From the IMG/VR virus record IMGVR_UViG_3300027897_000005, positions 1-37,521 of that record: a DNA stretch of 37,521 bases. One strand, given 5' to 3'. The notes beneath the pieces were generated by a model that did no database searches, had not been told where the DNA came from, and saw only the letters and a list, made by a program, of their open reading frames with translations. Shown piece by piece: positions 1 through 37,521 of this stretch. This DNA comes from a virus. Position 1 is the stretch's first letter, and every line of letters begins with the position of its first letter. Made by a program: the position numbers and the translations under genes.

Positions 1-99
1 CCAGGAACAATACAAAGATATGGATTTCACACTCGAACAAAGGATGCTTATGCTTTCATCCTTTGGACAATACAAGGAAGGTTTTTCATGGTTTGCGGG
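1..99. repeat. Terminal redundancy, left copy (contig is circular)
   Basis: These 99 bases are identical to the last 99 bases of the window. A coding frame continues through the joint without interruption. This is what an assembler leaves at the ends of a circular molecule, so the true length is about 37,422 bp. A real phage terminal repeat of exactly 99 bp cannot be excluded, but its position inside a partition gene makes that unlikely. Confidence 0.95.
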
Positions 100-624: not shown

Positions 625-666
625 TTGACATTATTAATATAATTAATATTATTGTTTTTATTAATA
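625..666 (+). promoter_or_regulatory. Promoter with three ATTAATA repeats (putative RHH operator)
   Basis: A TTGACA box (625-630) is followed after 16 bases by TATTAT (647-652). ATTAATA occurs at 633, 642 and 660, that is at spacings of 9 and 18, over the core promoter. It lies between the parB-like gene and a small ribbon-helix-helix gene, so autoregulation by that protein is the natural guess. Seen: boxes and repeats. Inferred: operator role. Confidence 0.6.
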
Positions 667-689
667 ATTAAATAATCAAGGTGAATACT

Positions 690-863
690 ATGAATACTCA
701 AACTATGATAAAAGAAAAAGCTATAACCCAAACTTTCTCTTTTGATAAAGAAAAAAAGGTTTTATTGCTAAAATTAAAAGATAAAGCTAAAAACAACAGG
801 CGAACGCTATCTGAAGAATTATGCGTCTGGCTTGAAAATTCTTCAGAGAATGTTCAGGCTTAA
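690..863 (+). CDS. Small ribbon-helix-helix-like regulator (57 aa)
   Basis: A basic 57-residue protein with a short beta-like segment (TQTFSF) followed by two predicted helices (KVLLLKLKDKAK and RTLSEELCVWLEN), the layout of Arc/MetJ/CopG-type DNA-binding proteins. I chose ATG 690 because AAGGTG sits six bases upstream; the in-frame GTG at 681 has no ribosome site. It follows a promoter carrying three ATTAATA repeats and is two bases upstream of a GIY-YIG gene that itself ends in an RHH-like region. Its likely role is repression of its own operon or of plasmid maintenance genes; it could instead be an antitoxin or accessory partition protein. Confidence 0.6.
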   Translation: MNTQTMIKEKAITQTFSFDKEKKVLLLKLKDKAKNNRRTLSEELCVWLENSSENVQA

Positions 864-865
864 TT

Positions 866-1351
866 ATGATTTATATCTATCAAATAAAAAACAGAATCAA
901 TAATAAAGTTTATATTGGTCAGACTGTTAATTTAGAAAGTAGAATTGTAAGTCATTTTTATATGTTAAAAAATGTTGATGGAAGATACACTAATAATAAG
1001 CTATATACTGAAATGAGAAATTTTGATATAAATAATTTTGATTGTAAAATTTTAGATTTTTCTAACAATCAGCAAGATGCAAATACGAAAGAAAGATATT
1101 GGATAAATTTTTATGAAACTATAAACAAAGGTTTAAATTCAAGAAAAGGTGGAAGAAATTTTTTACCAAAACAAAATAAAAGTGCTTCTGATTTAGTTTT
1201 AATAACAATTATATTTTCTAAAGAACAAAAAGAGTATCTTGATAATTGTGTTAAAGAAACTGGAATAAATAGGTCTGAATTTTTTCGCAGATTTATAGAT
1301 TCAGAAATTGAAAATAAGAAAAAAGAACAAGGAATTAAAATGGCAATGTAA
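866..1351 (+). CDS. GIY-YIG nuclease domain fused to ribbon-helix-helix tail
   Basis: Residues 1-95 form a GIY-YIG domain: YIYQIKN at 3-9, VYIGQT at 15-20, Arg26, His30, catalytic Glu candidate at 76 (KERYW) and Asn91. Residues about 109-145 (LVLITIIFSKEQ, then two helices ending RSEFFRRFID) look like an RHH DNA-binding unit. GIY-YIG homing enzymes typically carry NUMOD or HTH binding modules, so this tail is unusual. The upstream gene is a free RHH-like protein two bases away, suggesting co-transcription. It may be a free-standing homing endonuclease or a nuclease addressed to specific operators. There is no intron nearby to mark it as intron-encoded. Confidence 0.8.
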   Translation: MIYIYQIKNRINNKVYIGQTVNLESRIVSHFYMLKNVDGRYTNNKLYTEMRNFDINNFDCKILDFSNNQQDANTKERYWINFYETINKGLNSRKGGRNFLPKQNKSASDLVLITIIFSKEQKEYLDNCVKETGINRSEFFRRFIDSEIENKKKEQGIKMAM

Positions 1352-1432
1352 AATAAAAAGCCCACTGCTTGAACAGTGGGCTTTGCGAAAATCTTGGTGA
1401 TTGGAACGTCACCCTAAGTCTATTTCATAACT
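1350..1432 (-). ncRNA. Short minus-strand RNA before the candidate initiator gene (putative antisense copy-control RNA)
   Basis: The minus strand carries TTGACA (1468-1463), an 18-base spacer and TATATT (1444-1439), with a start expected near 1432. About 80 bases later is an 11-bp hairpin (1357-1384) whose minus-strand 3' side runs into a T-rich tail (TTTTTATTTT). Between them lies a second small hairpin, GGTGA...TCACC. No reading frame of note is present. The RNA is exactly complementary to the region that would be the leader of the plus-strand gene at 1541, the arrangement of countertranscribed RNAs that limit plasmid initiator synthesis. Promoter and terminator are seen; function is inferred. 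Confidence 0.65.
1357..1384 (-). terminator. Rho-independent terminator of the minus-strand RNA
   Basis: Arms 1357-1367 and 1374-1384 are perfect 11-bp complements with a 6-base loop. On the minus strand the hairpin is followed by a T-rich run; on the plus strand only TTT then GCG follows, so plus-strand termination should be weak and read-through from the GIY-YIG gene into the gene at 1541 is possible. Confidence 0.8.
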
Positions 1433-1438
1433 GAATAG

Positions 1439-1468
1439 AATATACTCAGGATGACTTCCTATTGTCAA
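1439..1468 (-). promoter_or_regulatory. Promoter of the minus-strand RNA
   Basis: Read on the minus strand: TTGACA, 18 bases, TATATT. The -35 is consensus and the -10 differs from TATAAT at one position. The spacer contains a short AGGA/TCCT inverted repeat. Confidence 0.65.
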
Positions 1469-1515
1469 CTATTTTTTGAGGTTGAGGATGGAAAAGTCAA
1501 AAAAAATGTTTGACC

Positions 1516-1538
1516 TCCCACCTGCTTTAATGGTGGGA
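1516..1538 (+). promoter_or_regulatory. Hairpin over the ribosome site of the candidate initiator
   Basis: TCCCACC (1516-1522) and GGTGGGA (1532-1538) pair around a 9-base loop. The 3' arm ends two bases before the TTG at 1541 and is the only G-rich element available as ribosome site, so the hairpin could hide it. The 3' arm of the upstream hairpin (CAGTGGG, 1374-1380) can also pair with CCCACCTG here with one bulge, giving two mutually exclusive folds. Confidence 0.5.
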
Positions 1539-1540
1539 AC

Positions 1541-2410
1541 TTGTATCTGTTAAAATACAATAAGGCATTAGTGCAAAACCTATTTAAAACATCAAGGGAA
1601 TCCGTCTTGATGTATCGCTATTATTTGATAATTCAAAAACATTTTTATTTGAAATCCGGCAAATTTACAATTGATAAGCTTATGGATTTATTGTATGAGC
1701 ATTATGGAGATCGTACATTACATCATAAACCAGGCAATAACCGAAGCAACACCCGAAAGAAATTATTTAATCGATTGAAAAATTGTCATTTATTCAAATA
1801 TATCAAATATGATAATACCTTTAGAATAGTATCAGCTAAAAAATTGATGGATGCACGCTATACGCTCAAGCGTCCGGTTTTGGATGCAGACTTGAAATCC
1901 GAGCAAATATTTATTGATATAATGATTGGTGTGATCCTTGATGGCAATAACTTCAAATCATACGAAAACACAGCCAAGCAGACCGGATACACCGAAAGGC
2001 GTATTCAACAAGCGGTTAAGCGCAATAACGAGTCAGGCCGTTTCTATAAAATTAACAACTTCATTATAGATATATCAGATCCTCTCAGCAGGGATGCCGT
2101 AGAAGCTCATAGACGCATCCTATTATATAATCATGGCATTAGAACACCTGAGCCTGTTTTTATGGCCTACAAAGGGCAGAGAGCCTATTATTTAGCCTTA
2201 TATGCAGCCAATTCTTATTATCATAGCGATAGTGCGGGTACTAAAGGTCAGCGCTATTCAAAAAAGCTAACGAGAATTAAGCCAGTATCAGAAATATCTT
2301 CACATCATTTTAAAACATCCGCACGCCTTTGGGGATTTACGAACAAATATTCATACCTGGACTATTTATTCGACCATGAAACTAAGGGGAGTTTGTATAA
2401 TGTTGCTTAA
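1541..2410 (+). CDS. Candidate plasmid replication initiator (helix-turn-helix protein, 289 aa)
   Basis: I do not recognise the family with confidence. The protein is basic and Tyr-rich. A first region (about residues 20-100) looks like a winged-helix fold with many aromatic and basic residues; a second (about 135-175, SYENTAKQTGYTERRIQQAV then RFYKINNFII) reads as a helix-turn-helix plus wing. Two winged-helix units are the plan of many iteron-type Rep proteins, and the gene sits next to the partition module with an antisense RNA in its leader. The start is uncertain: TTG 1541 abuts the leader hairpin, while ATG 1610 has AAGGGA ten bases upstream and would give 266 residues. It could instead be a transcription regulator. 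Confidence 0.5.
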   Translation: MYLLKYNKALVQNLFKTSRESVLMYRYYLIIQKHFYLKSGKFTIDKLMDLLYEHYGDRTLHHKPGNNRSNTRKKLFNRLKNCHLFKYIKYDNTFRIVSAKKLMDARYTLKRPVLDADLKSEQIFIDIMIGVILDGNNFKSYENTAKQTGYTERRIQQAVKRNNESGRFYKINNFIIDISDPLSRDAVEAHRRILLYNHGIRTPEPVFMAYKGQRAYYLALYAANSYYHSDSAGTKGQRYSKKLTRIKPVSEISSHHFKTSARLWGFTNKYSYLDYLFDHETKGSLYNVA

Positions 2411-3759: not shown

Positions 3760-4494
3760 ATGAACGATAAAGAAAATAAAACTGATGATTTGCTTCCAAT
3801 AAAAAAAGAACCCGCTTCAGAAAAAAATAGTATAAATAAAGATTCACTTACCACAGACCAGCAAAAAGAAGCTCACCTTTTAGACGTTATCATCAAACTA
3901 ACATTACCTAATCCCGAAAATATCACCTGGTTTATTGTAGGCGATAATGGATCAATAGAAAGATTCAGCGGAGATGTTAAAAAAATATTCAACGAAACTG
4001 CCGAAACCATAAAAGGGAAAAATATATTTTCATTGATTCAACCGAATATTATCAATCCAATGATCGTAGGGCTGAACTTTCCTTATGTCACCACCAAAAC
4101 AAATTACGGCGGAGAAAAAATTTCTATTTCGGTTAAGACTTCACGGGTATATCCTTCCGGATACATGGTTGTCGTTGACAACGTCATCCACCAAAAAAAG
4201 GAGGGCGGTTTATTTGAGCTAAATAATTTGGATTTGGTTTTTGCTCAATTGAATAGTGATGAAGTGAAACTTTTGAAATTACTCGCAGAAAGGAAAAAAA
4301 ATTCAGAAATTGCCCTTATACTGGATATAGAAAAAAACGCCCTGTCACAAAGAAAAAGAAGATTAAATTATAAATTAAAGCTTCAAAAAACTGACACATT
4401 AGCCATTTTAACAAAAATGTGGATCGCCAATGCGCCACAAGGTTATAACGAGAAAAAAGTGACAGAAAGTGACAATGAAAATGACGAAAAATGA
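3760..4494 (+). CDS. PAS-like sensor with LuxR-type helix-turn-helix (244 aa)
   Basis: Residues 1-35 are a charged linker. Residues about 45-140 (NITWFIVGDNGSIERFSG ... GYMVVVDNV) have the pattern of a PAS domain. Residues about 160-225 (LNSDEVKLLKLLAERKKNSEIALILD ... SQRKRRLNYKLKL) match the LuxR/GerE HTH plan: an 'L...E...L.LLA.g.s..EIA..L' first half and a recognition helix rich in Arg/Lys. The C-terminus reads through the first TGACA repeats. It is likely a regulator that feeds a host signal into the lysogeny switch next to the divergent XRE repressor. PAS assignment is moderate, HTH stronger. Confidence 0.65.
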   Translation: MNDKENKTDDLLPIKKEPASEKNSINKDSLTTDQQKEAHLLDVIIKLTLPNPENITWFIVGDNGSIERFSGDVKKIFNETAETIKGKNIFSLIQPNIINPMIVGLNFPYVTTKTNYGGEKISISVKTSRVYPSGYMVVVDNVIHQKKEGGLFELNNLDLVFAQLNSDEVKLLKLLAERKKNSEIALILDIEKNALSQRKRRLNYKLKLQKTDTLAILTKMWIANAPQGYNEKKVTESDNENDEK

Positions 4495-4553
4495 CAACGG
4501 AAGTGACAAGAAAAGTGACAAAATGAGTCACTTCGTTGTCACTTTCTGTCACT
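4458..4553. repeat. TGACA repeat cluster with inverted copies (candidate origin, operator or terminator)
   Basis: TGACA or TGACG occurs in direct orientation at 4460, 4470, 4482, 4492, 4504 and 4516 (spacing 10, 10-12 thereafter) and in inverted form at 4527-4531, 4538-4542 and 4548-4552. The first two copies with flanks (4458-4475) form an 18-bp perfect inverted repeat with 4536-4553, and other arms can pair as well. A T-run follows at 4554. Helical phasing suggests cooperative protein binding, as in iterons; the terminal hairpin plus T-run also suits transcription termination of the gene it overlaps. Confidence 0.7.
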
Positions 4554-4684
4554 CTTTTTTTTGTTAAAAAATGAAAAAACAATTGCTATTAATTTTAAAA
4601 AAAATAAATACCGTCTGGGTGGGATGTTTTTAAAAAAAAAGATATGGATGTCTTTTAAAAAAACAACAACGGAAGGTAAAAACA
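4554..4684. other. AT-rich spacer with A-tracts
   Basis: Apart from one doubtful small frame downstream, no gene is supported here. The stretch is strongly A/T with runs of T and A, including two similar units beginning GGATG followed by T-then-A tracts at 4622 and 4646 (24 bases apart). Next to the TGACA cluster this resembles an unwinding region, but no DnaA box was recognised. Confidence 0.4.
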
Positions 4685-4957
4685 ATGAGGAAGCACAAAC
4701 ATCAGGCAGGGAATAAATTTATAAGATGTATAAGAAAATTCATTCCCTGTTTATTTTGCACAAGCAACAAGAAAAAAACAATCAGAAAAAATGAAGAAAA
4801 TGAAGAAAAAATAATTAAATTTATGACTATACTAGTGACAAAACATGTTGAATTATACCTTGTAGCTCATTCAATATCTCCATCCGTTTCTGTCGAGGCA
4901 AATTGTTTATCAGTTGAAGCAACACAATTTGCTCTTGATAAACACCTGGCGGAATGA
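4685..4957 (+). CDS. Doubtful small basic protein (90 aa) overlapping the repressor gene
   Basis: It has a fair ribosome site (GGAAGG, eight bases before ATG) and a very basic Cys-containing first half (CIRKFIPCLFC), but its last 131 bases are antisense to the XRE repressor. I see no known domain. It may be a real small gene or a chance frame. Confidence 0.25.
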   Translation: MRKHKHQAGNKFIRCIRKFIPCLFCTSNKKKTIRKNEENEEKIIKFMTILVTKHVELYLVAHSISPSVSVEANCLSVEATQFALDKHLAE

Positions 4958-5201
4958 GTTTAGTTTTATCATCGTCATCTCTCATGAAGAAGGAAAACAA
5001 AGGAACTTCTAAATAATTTAAAACAGTTTCAATAAAAACTAAATCTGGTTTTGCATTATTGATATTGTTGTTGAATGTGCTTTTTGCGATTTTTAAATCC
5101 TCTGCAATTTGCTTTTGTTGAATTTTTTTTGCTTTGATGACTGTTCTCAACTTTTTATTCCAATCCGTTTCTTTTTTCCAACTTTTTTTTTCTTCTGCCA
5201 T
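4827..5201 (-). CDS. XRE-family repressor (probable lysogeny regulator, 124 aa)
   Basis: Residues about 15-75 form an XRE/Cro-CI helix-turn-helix: KLRTVIKAKKIQQKQIAEDL, then IAKSTFNNNINNAKPDLVFIETVLNYL split over the recognition and following helices, with the QKQIA/AKSTF spacing typical of the family. The C-terminal part (IPPGVYQEQIVLLQLINNLP ...) resembles the short tail of regulators lacking a LexA-like protease domain. The start ATG at 5201 has AAGGA seven bases upstream; GTG 5207 is too close to it. It is transcribed away from the replication operon and faces heptad operators, the classical place for the repressor keeping lytic genes off. Confidence 0.8.
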   Translation of the reverse strand: MAEEKKSWKKETDWNKKLRTVIKAKKIQQKQIAEDLKIAKSTFNNNINNAKPDLVFIETVLNYLEVPLFSFFMRDDDDKTKLIPPGVYQEQIVLLQLINNLPRQKRMEILNELQGIIQHVLSLV

Positions 5202-5296
5202 TTTCACATCCTTTTGCTCAATTTTTTATAATTTAAAAAATAATTATATATCTAATCGTCAATTAAAACAACAAAAAATCGGGATTTTTCACAAAT

Positions 5297-5377
5297 AATA
5301 TTCAATATTCAATATTCAATATTATGGTTTTTTAAAGGGAGAAAAAAAAATTCAAAATATTGAATATTTACTTGACA
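5297..5377 (+). promoter_or_regulatory. Heptad operator array and promoter of the early region
   Basis: AATATTC is repeated in tandem at 5297, 5304 and 5311, with a fourth near-copy (AATATTA) at 5318. Two inverted units (5356-5368, AATATT then GAATATT) sit just before a TTGACA box (5372-5377). The matching -10 is unclear: nothing good at 17 bases, TATTAT only at 5402. The layout suits cooperative binding by the XRE repressor or by the RHH protein at 5437. Confidence 0.6.
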
Positions 5378-5842: not shown

Positions 5843-6661
5843 ATGTCAGACGATAAAAAATATTATTATTTAAAACTTAAAGATAATTTTTTCGATTCAG
5901 AAGAAATGATAATTTTGCAGAATATGCCAGATGGATATTTATATTCTGATATTCTTTTTAAAATGTATTTACGCAGTTTGAAAAATAATGGCAAGTTGAT
6001 GTTTAACGATTATATCCCTTACAATTCAATTATTCTTTCTCAAATAGTTAGACATTCTGTTGGTGTTGTAGAAAAATCCATTTCAATATTTAAAAATCTT
6101 AGTTTAATTGAGGTAATGGATAACGGTGCTATTTATATGTTAAATATTCAAAATTATATTGGTCATTCAAGCTCTGAGGCCGACAGGCAAAGGGAATATC
6201 AAAAAAAGATTAAATCTGAGAAAAAACAAATTGGCTATGAACCAAGTAAGGAATCTAACAGAAAAACTACACCAGAGAGAGAGAAAGAGAGAAAGAAAAA
6301 GATAAATAAAGAGAAAAAGAAAGAAGCTGCGGAAAAATCCGCTTCGTTTAAAATAAAAAAAATATTCGAGGATGGAAGTAAAATGCTGAATAATGGCACT
6401 GGTTATTACCATGACGGCAGGCAAGCCAAAGCGGTCAGCAACCTTGAGCCCCGATACAATGATGATTCAATTAAATTTGAGGAGCTTGCAAGGAAATTTT
6501 TCAAAATTATTAAATCGTCAAAAGAAGTGTTTTGGAATAGTGCCTCATTTGATCCGGCTACATTTGAAAGCCGATGGAATAGCATTGTATCATACAAACT
6601 GGATAAGGGGAAAGGATATAATGACCCTGATATTGTTAAGCAGCTGGATGCAATAATATGA
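5843..6661 (+). CDS. Phage replisome organiser-type replication protein (272 aa)
   Basis: The N-terminal 115 residues (YYYLKLKDNFFDSEEM ... MPDGYLYSDILFKMYLRSLKNNG) match the phage replisome organiser N-terminal domain (Phage_rep_org_N), a winged-helix origin-binding fold. A long Lys/Glu linker follows (residues about 125-170), then a C-terminal domain (about 200-272) probably for loader or helicase contact. It likely melts or marks the phage origin and recruits host DnaB helicase. It overlaps the next gene by four bases (ATGA), so a helicase-loader role for that product is plausible. Confidence 0.8.
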   Translation: MSDDKKYYYLKLKDNFFDSEEMIILQNMPDGYLYSDILFKMYLRSLKNNGKLMFNDYIPYNSIILSQIVRHSVGVVEKSISIFKNLSLIEVMDNGAIYMLNIQNYIGHSSSEADRQREYQKKIKSEKKQIGYEPSKESNRKTTPEREKERKKKINKEKKKEAAEKSASFKIKKIFEDGSKMLNNGTGYYHDGRQAKAVSNLEPRYNDDSIKFEELARKFFKIIKSSKEVFWNSASFDPATFESRWNSIVSYKLDKGKGYNDPDIVKQLDAII

Positions 6662-30703: not shown

Positions 30704-32260
30704 ATGGCATATAATAAATTACCAGTTAGAACTTCTCAGGATGCTAATAGTCCGGCGGATATCAATTTACTCCAGAGTAATTTGGATGCTGTGGTGGGTG
30801 GAGACATACCGCTTGAATCGATAAACGGGTTAGCAGGAAAAATAGTTACTCTTGAAACAGGATTAGGAGATAATTCATTTACAGTCTCAACCGGAGAAAC
30901 CGTAACAGTCGATGATATAGTAGAGATGATAAATGACGGAACTATTAGGACAAAGAAACCGGAACTCTCTGCAAAACTACCAGTAGTATTTGAATCAGCA
31001 TTTACGCAATACATTTCGGCAGTAGCATTATCAGATAGTAATGTCTTGGTTGCTTATCAAGATGGTGGTAATTCTAATTTTGGTACTGCAAGAGTTTTAT
31101 CAATAACAAATACAGTAATTACTTTTGGTACAGAGGTAATATTTGAATCAGCAGGTACAGCTTACATTTCAGCAACAGCATTGTCAGGCAGTAAAGTTCT
31201 TGTTGCTTATCAAGATATTGGTAATTCCAATGCTGGTACTGCAAGAGTTTTAACAATTACAGGAGCGGCAATTACTTTTGCTGCAGAGGCAGTATTTGAA
31301 TCAGCAAACACGCAATACATTTCAGCAGTTGCATTATCAAGCAGCAAAGTTTTGGTTGCTTATGCTGGTACTGCAAGAGTTTTAACAATTACAGGAGCGG
31401 CAATTTCAACTCCAAGTCCAGCAGTTTCATTTGACTCGGGCGTTACTAGTGTTTCAGCATCAATATTGCCACAGAATAATGTCTTGGTTGCTTATGCAAG
31501 GTCTGGTAGTTTCAGTTATGCAAGAGTTTTAACAATTACAGGAACGGTAATTTCAACTCCAAGTCCAGCAGTTTCATTTGACTCGGGCGTTACTAATGTT
31601 TCGGTAATAACATTATCAGATTATACAAGTTTGGTAGTATATTATAAAGACTCTAGCTCTTCAATATGCGCAAGAGTTTTATCAATTACAGGAACGGTAA
31701 TTACAACTCCAAGTCCAGCAATAGTAGTTGGTTTTTCTAATTATTCTTCAATAGTAGCGTTATCAGATACTATGGTGGTTGTTTTTTATATAAGTACCGT
31801 AAGCAAAGCTGTATTATTGACAATTACAGATACAGAAATAAATTTAAGTATGGTAATTACTTTTAAGCAATCAGCTGTGGGAGCTGTTTCAGCAGTTGCG
31901 TTATCAGACAATAAAGTCATATTTGCTTATAGAGATGATGGTAATGCCAATTATGGTACTGCAAATATTGTTGAATTAAAACAATATCCTGTAATAGGGA
32001 TTGCAAAAGAAACCAAAACTGCCGGACAGCAATGTATCGTTGCCGATTTGAAAAAAAAACCTCATATAACAATGGTTCAGGATATATCTTCGGGATCAAG
32101 ATACTATGAGATGAATGGAGTAATAAGTCTCAATAAAAAAAATCAAGCGTTGAGTCCTTATATCAACAGGGTATTCACCCCAAAGAATTTAATCGTTGGT
32201 GTTGCAATAGACACTCATAAAATAAGCATAGATAATATAATCTATGGTGGGTCTGTATGA
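30704..32260 (+). CDS. Tail fibre/receptor-binding protein with seven-repeat propeller (518 aa)
   Basis: Residues 1-90 are a tail-attachment region (SPADINLLQSNLDAV, then a GETVTVDDIVEMI segment). Residues about 94-425 are seven repeats of 42-51 residues with the pattern 'V.F.S....YISAVALSDSKVLVAY.D.GN.N.GTARVLTITG..I', as expected for a seven-bladed beta-propeller; repeat 3 lacks about seven residues of the hairpin. Residues 430-518 form a C-terminal domain. It probably binds the host surface. Confidence 0.75.
   Translation: MAYNKLPVRTSQDANSPADINLLQSNLDAVVGGDIPLESINGLAGKIVTLETGLGDNSFTVSTGETVTVDDIVEMINDGTIRTKKPELSAKLPVVFESAFTQYISAVALSDSNVLVAYQDGGNSNFGTARVLSITNTVITFGTEVIFESAGTAYISATALSGSKVLVAYQDIGNSNAGTARVLTITGAAITFAAEAVFESANTQYISAVALSSSKVLVAYAGTARVLTITGAAISTPSPAVSFDSGVTSVSASILPQNNVLVAYARSGSFSYARVLTITGTVISTPSPAVSFDSGVTNVSVITLSDYTSLVVYYKDSSSSICARVLSITGTVITTPSPAIVVGFSNYSSIVALSDTMVVVFYISTVSKAVLLTITDTEINLSMVITFKQSAVGAVSAVALSDNKVIFAYRDDGNANYGTANIVELKQYPVIGIAKETKTAGQQCIVADLKKKPHITMVQDISSGSRYYEMNGVISLNKKNQALSPYINRVFTPKNLIVGVAIDTHKISIDNIIYGGSV
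30983..31978 (+). repeat. Seven tandem propeller repeats in the fibre gene
   Basis: The repeats are also alike at the DNA level; for example about 85 bases beginning at GCAAGAGTTTT near 31373 recur at 31520 (offset 147) with few changes. This points to recent duplication inside the gene. Confidence 0.85.
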
Positions 32261-36274: not shown

Positions 36275-36476
36275 AAATAAATTTATCTTGACACGCGACA
36301 TAATCCCTGATAGCTTCCCTATTGCCCACCAGACAGCATAGGATTGATTAATAAGCAGGGCGAAAAATGATTTTTCAACAGGTTATAAAAAATAAACAAA
36401 AACATATTCTACGGTGTGGACTGGAGGAAAAACAAATGGAAATAATCACAAATATTTAAAATAAGCAAAAATTAAA
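36275..36476. other. Intergenic region before the partition module
   Basis: No supported gene. A 30-residue frame at 36367-36459 lacks a good ribosome site. A TTGACA occurs at 36288 but its 17-base partner (TAGCTT) is poor. GGAGGAAAA near 36423 leads only to a seven-codon frame. Confidence 0.4.
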
Positions 36477-36517
36477 TTTTGTTCAATCTGTCCCATCATG
36501 GGATAGATTGAACAAAA
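36477..36517. promoter_or_regulatory. parS: 41-bp palindrome upstream of parA (putative centromere/operator)
   Basis: Arms of 19 bases (36477-36495 and 36499-36517) match with a single G/T mismatch around TCA. It begins TTTTGTTCAATCT. It lies 34 bases before parA. Such palindromes bind the ParB-like protein for segregation and may repress parA; a bidirectional terminator is the alternative, though no clear T-run follows either arm. Confidence 0.65.
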
Positions 36518-36551
36518 GTACAACAATGTATATTTTGGGGGTTTAGTTAAC

Positions 36552-37298
36552 ATGAATAAAAACATAGTAATTTCAAATAGTAAAGGTGGCGCAGGGAAAA
36601 GCACCGTCAGTGCGTTTCTTGCAATGATTTCTTCAAATTCAGGTTTAAAAACTATAATGATTGATTCTGGTTGGCAACGTCATAGCACTAAGGTGTTTTT
36701 ACATGATGAACAAATTAGCAAAAACTTGCTTGATGGGTTGAAAAACAAAAAAATATTGAAGGAATGTGTCTACACAATAAATGAGAAACTTGATATTATT
36801 CCGGCAACAATCAACATGAACAATTTTTCTGATGAGTTTTCAAATATTACAGGGGATAAAAAAAATTTAATATTTAAAACGGTTTTAGACCCTACCCTTT
36901 CTAATTATGATATTTGCGTTTTTGACACTGAGTCCAGCTTGGGGGCGTTGACTAGAAATGCCTTAGTTTTGGCTGATATAATTATAATTCCTATCCGTGA
37001 TGGAGATTGTATTGTCGAAGCTGAAAAATTGTTGCAAACTATTGATGATATGCAACAATTATATCCTAATCACATGTTTGTTTCTAAAATATTTATTTTT
37101 CCAGTAATTAAACCTTTTTTATCAAGAGATTATAATCAAATTTTAAATGAAGCAAAAAGAACATTAAAACATGATTTTTTAATGCCTGTAAAATATCATT
37201 CAGCATTATACACAAGCAATAGTAAAAAAGCATTTAATAGAGAAGGGAAAGCGTATAAAGATTATGAAAAAAGTTTGCAAGGAGCTTGGATAATATGA
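36552..37298 (+). CDS. parA: ParA-family partition ATPase (248 aa)
   Basis: Deviant Walker A KGGAGKST at residues 11-18, then TIMIDSGWQRHST where most ParA proteins have a 'D.DpQ.s' switch, and Walker B-like ICVFDTESS (Asp125) in place of DTPP. Later ADIIIIPIRDGD and the C-terminal helices fit the small ParA type without an N-terminal HTH (type Ib/II-like). It spreads on the nucleoid and moves plasmid copies apart when stimulated by the ParB-like protein from the overlapping gene. Confidence 0.9.
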   Translation: MNKNIVISNSKGGAGKSTVSAFLAMISSNSGLKTIMIDSGWQRHSTKVFLHDEQISKNLLDGLKNKKILKECVYTINEKLDIIPATINMNNFSDEFSNITGDKKNLIFKTVLDPTLSNYDICVFDTESSLGALTRNALVLADIIIIPIRDGDCIVEAEKLLQTIDDMQQLYPNHMFVSKIFIFPVIKPFLSRDYNQILNEAKRTLKHDFLMPVKYHSALYTSNSKKAFNREGKAYKDYEKSLQGAWII

Positions 37299-37521
37299 GC
37301 GAAAAATTAGACCTAACACCACATCAAGGGAAGCAATCTTCGTATGACCTCGTGTATGAGATGTTTAACATCAATTTAAACGCTGGAGAAGAAAAAATTA
37401 AAAAGCAGTTTAAAAAAGTTTACCAGGAACAATACAAAGATATGGATTTCACACTCGAACAAAGGATGCTTATGCTTTCATCCTTTGGACAATACAAGGA
37501 AGGTTTTTCATGGTTTGCGGG
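37295..37521 (+). CDS. parB: ParB-like partition partner, N-terminal part (continues at base 2)
   Basis: ATG overlaps the parA stop (ATGA). The frame is open to the end of the window and continues at base 2 through the circular overlap, giving 247 residues in total. The N-terminal 60 residues (LDLTPHQGKQSSYDLVYEMF, then charged helix) have no recognised domain; short disordered N-termini of ParB partners usually touch ParA. Confidence 0.7.
   Translation, partial: MSEKLDLTPHQGKQSSYDLVYEMFNINLNAGEEKIKKQFKKVYQEQYKDMDFTLEQRMLMLSSFGQYKEGFSWFA
37423..37521. repeat. Terminal redundancy, right copy
   Basis: Identical to bases 1-99; see the left copy. Count it once when building the circular map. 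Confidence 0.95.

Follow-up and report, generated by a model that had tools for sequence, protein, structure and literature searches.

A predicted antisense RNA opposite the leader of a rep-like gene in an apparent phage-plasmid

The low-copy maintenance of phage-plasmids is understood for only a few systems, and the locus described here raises the question of whether a temperate phage could set the copy number of its plasmid prophage by means of a small antisense RNA. The window, by which we mean the whole stretch of 37,521 nucleotides analysed (IMG/VR record IMGVR_UViG_3300027897_000005), contains a gap of 190 bp between ORF 866-1351 and a rep-like ORF (~1541/1571-2410), and this gap holds both a promoter-like and a terminator-like signal on the minus strand. 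These signals are real, ordinary in kind and unusual in place. A cis-acting antisense RNA that limits the neighbouring rep-like gene, and hence copy number, is in our view the best explanation, with about an even chance of being correct.

Identical stretches of 99 bases were found at both ends of the window (1-99 and 37423-37521), and this direct terminal repeat indicates a circular genome of ~37.4 kb. The circle was opened within the partition gene after parA; that gene is split across the record ends and runs on to 616. It is probably parB, with a weak match to the ParB HTH that falls below the cut-off (E 6e-4). Close relatives of ParA and ParB were sought in order to reach sister replicons, and none were close. 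A terminase is present among the phage structural genes, and ERF, SSB and a DNA methylase are also encoded. Judging by its domain match, the Phage_rep_org_N gene is the likely lytic initiator, separate from the gene at 1541, and the minus-strand HTH repressor gene is likely to confer immunity. This temperate phage appears to persist inside its host in the form of a circular plasmid. The terminase has its closest named relative in a Spirochaetia MAG (63% identity), and the host of this phage-plasmid is probably a spirochaete. Directly 5' of parA, at 36458-36536, there is a long palindrome with the core TTTTGTTCAATCTGTCCCATCATGGGATAGATTGAACAAAA, a candidate parS site or operator.

Two ORFs stand between parB and the gap (Table 1). 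The first, of 60 aa, has no family match in the databases, and from its ribbon-helix-helix-like appearance by eye it is perhaps a small repressor. The second, ORF 866-1351, lies between par and rep and has a very low GC content (22%). Its C-terminal part is ribbon-helix-helix-like, with an RHH_1 match below the cut-off, and its stop codon abuts the predicted 3' end of the antisense RNA. It is perhaps a homing gene that has entered the replication module.

Table 1. Features of the locus and of its genome setting, with positions in the window
Feature	Position	Strand	Basis and remarks
Promoter TTGACA-16-TATTAT, best upstream on the plus strand	625..652	+	11/12; overlaps inverted repeat 630-668
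60-aa ORF between parB and endonuclease	681..863	+	ORF list
GIY-YIG endonuclease-like ORF	866..1351	+	Pfam GIY-YIG E 1.1e-10
Predicted antisense RNA, ~83 nt, non-coding	~1350..~1432	-	Promoter and terminator spacing; fold
Intrinsic terminator, hairpin and T-tract, loop UUCAAG	1357..1384	-	Terminator scan
Upstream stem-loop GGTGAC GTTCCA ATCACC	1396..1413	-	Folding; z -0.35, within chance by itself
Predicted antisense-RNA promoter, TTGACA 1468-1463, 18 bp, TATATT 1444-1439	1439..1468	-	11/12 consensus match
Hairpin B (TCCCACCTGCTTTAATGGTGGGA), just before rep-like ORF	1516..1538	+	Direct repeat D1; hairpin list
Possible extended -10 promoter TGTTAAAAT	1548..1556	+	-35 match only 3/6
Rep-like orphan ORF	1571..2410	+	Start GTG 1571 or ATG 1610; listed from TTG 1541
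Hairpin ACATCAAG...CTTGATGT	1589..1613	+	9 predicted pairs; hides AAGGG and ATG 1610 in mRNA
HTH repressor	4827-5207	-	Domain matches
Phage_rep_org_N replisome organiser	5843-6661		Domain match
ParA partition ATPase	36552..37298	+	AAA_31 E 3.9e-30; PHROG ParA-like E 7e-34

The sequence-only reading had proposed a near-consensus minus-strand promoter, a strong minus-strand terminator and, between them, an RNA of about 80 bases; both signals and the predicted length were recovered. Sites that score at least 11/12 number 10 in the window, this promoter included, where shuffled sequences gave a mean of 2.0. The terminator reads AAAGCCCACTGTTCAAGCAGTGGGCTTT followed by TTATTTTA on the minus strand, and under stricter thresholds the window has no other strong terminator on either strand. 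When a pair was defined as a promoter followed by a terminator within 200 nt, the 37.5-kb window yielded one such pair, as did 253 kb of other loci, and 60 dinucleotide-shuffled genomes yielded none. No minus-strand ORF of at least 60 aa, which the terminator might otherwise serve, was found between 1365 and 4316.

The predicted transcript (1432..1350) has no reading frame of note, its sole AUG start reading AUG AAA UAG. It folds at -26.3 kcal/mol with z = -4.3, a value that is due to the terminator, since folding the 5' part by itself yields z = -0.35. Hence, the extra hairpin that had been claimed for this RNA is present in the predicted fold but does not go beyond chance. No match to the antisense RNA families of Rfam 15 was obtained at the gathering score, and a relaxed threshold returned noise-level matches only (sar at 14.8 bits, against a gathering score of 43). 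A search of IMG/VR for the hairpin motifs of the antisense region found none, and no relatives of the antisense RNA were found in the collections searched.

The geometry of a countertranscribed RNA, also part of the original proposal, matches known RNAs of this type in anatomy and placement, namely pSK41 RNAI, whose layout is nearly the same, and pMV158 RNAII. RNAI of pSK41 is ~83 nt long, with an 18-nt 5' tail and two stem-loops separated by an 8-nt spacer, and it is countertranscribed to the leader of rep, ~100 nt ahead of the start (PMC5703833). The RNA predicted here likewise has ~83 nt, an 18-nt 5' tail and two stem-loops, all with predicted ends, whereas its spacer is 11 nt; like RNAI of pSK41 and pSK1 it would be countertranscribed to the leader at some 100-150 nt from the rep start, in this case ~130 nt before GTG 1571. 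However, pSK41 encodes a RepA_N initiator, whereas no RepA_N match was obtained for the rep protein of this locus, and the carrier is a phage with a Spirochaetia MAG as its nearest named host relative. Furthermore, RNAI binding induces a stem-loop that hides the rep ribosome-binding site, whereas folding showed no such RNA-induced hiding in the present leader. In pMV158, RNAII occupies the intergenic region between copG and repB (PMC4485353), and the antisense gene here similarly fills the gap between a ribbon-helix-helix-like ORF and the rep gene. RNAII nevertheless is only 48 nt long and has one hairpin, in contrast to the ~83 nt and two stem-loops predicted here; in place of copG the upstream gene is GIY-YIG endonuclease-like, and the rep protein shows no relation.

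Among phages, noncoding RNA in prophage replication was found in the open-access literature only for mycobacteriophages. In RedRock and Alma, which belong to cluster A, RNA-based prophage replication is described beside parABS, and the RNA is a component of the origin (PMC7157519). The present phage resembles them as a temperate phage with a par cassette and an adjoining predicted noncoding RNA, but RedRock and Alma require their RNA for replication and lack repA, whereas here a rep-like ORF follows the RNA.

The top-ranked plasmid BLAST match of the region, which is not significant (E = 2), lies before repA of Staphylococcus epidermidis plasmids in the same orientation; the remaining plasmid matches, in other genera, were shorter or had an unrelated setting. 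The S. epidermidis site consists of AAGGCAACTGTTCCAGCAGTTGCCTT followed by TTTATTTT, a minus-strand terminator, with a minus-strand promoter further in. Its terminator hairpin and that of the phage agree in the inner four pairs and in five of the six loop bases, and differ in several outer pairs on both sides; the T-tracts are also nearly alike. Since the Rep proteins and the hosts differ, convergence is likelier than descent as the source of this likeness. The S. epidermidis stretch (2001-2160 of locus L020) is in itself an unannotated RNAI-like combination of minus-strand promoter and terminator before repA, and it is common to a handful of Staphylococcus plasmid records. Two phage matches of the region were taken as chance, one in a Schiekvirus, where it falls inside a coding gene, and one in Bacillus phage vB_BcoS-136, where it falls in a gap between genes; neither adjoins a recognisable rep gene.

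The gene downstream had been read as starting at 1541, with the RNA just before it. The position of the RNA in the gap stands, but TTG 1541 is a poor start that lacks a good Shine-Dalgarno sequence, and GTG 1571 has AAGG at 5-nt spacing. GTG 1571 or ATG 1610 is the likelier start, so the true leader would be 30-70 bases longer than one counted from TTG 1541. No recognised initiator domain was detected in ORF 1541 by Pfam or PHROG, and the helix-turn-helix signal is weak (E 0.013, below the cut-off). No homologue was found in IMG/VR with the whole protein and its helix-turn-helix part as queries, in phages and plasmids by tblastn, or in GTDB contigs and 12 related phage contigs, and NCBIfam and PDB gave no match; the collection scans were seeded by exact 8-residue words of one sequence, which distant relatives could escape. 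No homologue was credited in 395 Spirochaetia genomes, where the match obtained (E 0.005 over 46 residues) is interrupted by four stops. Two weak matches in the related MAG were also discarded, one being adenylate kinase-like by eye and the other stop-interrupted. An AlphaFold2 model from the single sequence was unusable (pLDDT 35.6). Its position by parA/parB, the separate lytic initiator and the weak helix-turn-helix signal suggest that the 1541 gene is the probable initiator of lysogenic replication.

A sense transcript across the antisense region and into rep could arise from the promoter at 625, and no strong plus-strand terminator was found between that promoter and rep in the scan of the window. 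From the weak candidate promoter at 1548-1556, a rep mRNA would begin past the antisense target and so evade the RNA, which is the most serious challenge to the antisense-control model. Even with the terminator hairpin left out, the plus-strand leader is unusually structured (z -3.35). Occupying 1350-1432 in silico did not lower the predicted accessibility of the rep starts and did not raise the predicted formation of the hairpin that hides AAGGG and ATG 1610, so that folding revealed no RNA-induced switch at the rep start. The mode of action of pairing could therefore be hindrance, duplex cleavage or colliding transcription. As to the earlier proposal of antisense copy-number control, the geometry and the plasmid-type maintenance genes are in its favour; the orphan target gene, the possible rep promoter past the RNA, an upstream stem-loop that is within chance and the lack of an RNA-dependent change at the rep start by folding weigh against it.

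Hairpin B has 13 of 16 nt in common with the antisense terminator hairpin (hairpin A, 1357-1384), including CCCAC...GTGGG and the TGCTTnAA loop, which makes the antisense RNA partly complementary to hairpin B. In a ranking by pairing energy of 3735 plus-strand windows off the perfect target, the windows over hairpin B came 3rd and 11th, and relative to shuffled versions of B the pairing stood out only at the 3% level. Based on this complementarity, hairpin B may be a second contact site of the antisense RNA. To our knowledge, contact at two sites of a leader, here the perfect target and hairpin B, is undescribed for plasmid antisense RNAs. An attenuator of the pT181/pIP501 type was considered and rejected, as hairpin B has no T-tract and an arm of A could pair with B over 5 bp only.

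Another possible source of the two hairpins is a mobile element, whose two ends they would mark. IS605-type elements typically carry such a pair, and the extent of identity between A and B would suit a remnant or miniature IS200/IS605-type element filling the gap, with both hairpins subterminal and the promoter and terminator signals as by-products. However, neither hairpin has a copy in IMG/VR, the 395 Spirochaetia genomes (which may not include the true host) gave no match covering the hairpins, and no transposase was recognised among the ORFs examined; we therefore regard such an origin of the gap as very unlikely. A role for the RNA within an RNA-based origin, as a primer or its inhibitor in the manner of ColE1 or of the proposed RedRock/Alma type, instead of in the regulation of rep translation, seems to us barely credible. 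The RNA does sit in a par-rep module, and prophage RNA-based replication beside parABS has a precedent (PMC7157519), but a rep-sized ORF follows directly, and the RNA is short, antisense and stops at a terminator instead of entering an origin.

Two further readings carry more weight. The hairpin may be an ordinary terminator next to an incidental promoter match, either for leftward transcription out of the repressor region or as a one-sided terminator after the endonuclease gene. It follows the ORF 866-1351 stop codon by 6 nt, no other strong terminator is available to any leftward transcript, including that of the repressor gene, and promoter matches of 11/12 number 10 in the window. On the other hand, a T-tract follows the hairpin on the minus strand alone (the plus side reads TTTGCG), 3.4 kb with several plus-strand genes separate it from the repressor gene, and the shuffles yielded 2 such promoters per window with none paired to a terminator. 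The absence of any regulatory RNA is thus unlikely, though it deserves serious consideration. Alternatively, the antisense RNA could be real and have another role, acting in lysogeny or immunity as C4, sar or OOP do in other temperate phages, on the endonuclease gene or on a target in trans. Small antisense RNAs of temperate phages commonly serve immunity, as exemplified by C4 of P1/P7, sar of P22 and OOP of lambda; moreover, ORF 1541 is assigned to rep only indirectly, and leaky termination would take the RNA antisense into ORF 866-1351. Against such a role, the rep leader is the sole perfect complement of the RNA, the likely immunity gene is elsewhere (the HTH repressor) and Rfam scores the resemblance to sar as noise. 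We consider it a minority prospect that has to be reckoned with.

In the antisense-control model, the minus strand from 1468 to 1350 would encode a constitutive non-coding RNA, and the sense mRNA would run into the rep-like gene from the promoter at 625 or from one inside ORF 866. The antisense RNA would pair with the untranslated leader of this mRNA, probably through its two hairpin loops, and the resulting drop in expression of the probable lysogenic initiator would scale with gene dosage; the plasmid prophage would thereby be held at low copy number. Control could be exerted by translation block, RNase cleavage or transcriptional interference. The sequence itself shows the promoter- and terminator-like signals, how rare they are, the predicted fold of the RNA and the setting in a circular phage-plasmid. 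We infer the transcription of both strands, the identity of the 1541 gene as initiator, the sign and level of control and the copy-number effect from the arrangement of the locus. The more specific proposal, in which a pSK41-like countertranscribed RNA, an entirely unknown class of initiator and a two-hairpin contact together set the lysogenic copy number of a tailed phage, probably of a spirochaete, is quite unlikely to hold in full. If antisense control is true, plasmid-style RNA copy control would extend to another phage lineage, one with an orphan initiator, and the locus would represent a compact replicon with an antisense dosage sensor, for which a promoter knock-out offers a ready-made copy-number test.

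Other repeats were observed in the genome. Between a LuxR-HTH-like ORF and the HTH repressor, GTGACA/TGACA repeats spaced ~12 bp apart, some of them inverted, form an array at 4452-4558 and are candidate iterons or operators. A perfect 7-base tandem repeat (AATATTC, 3.9 copies) is located at 5297-5323, in the stretch that separates the repressor from the genes for lytic replication, and a 153-bp repeat of 2.5 copies lies at 30983-31363, within ORF 30704-32260 near the tail genes.
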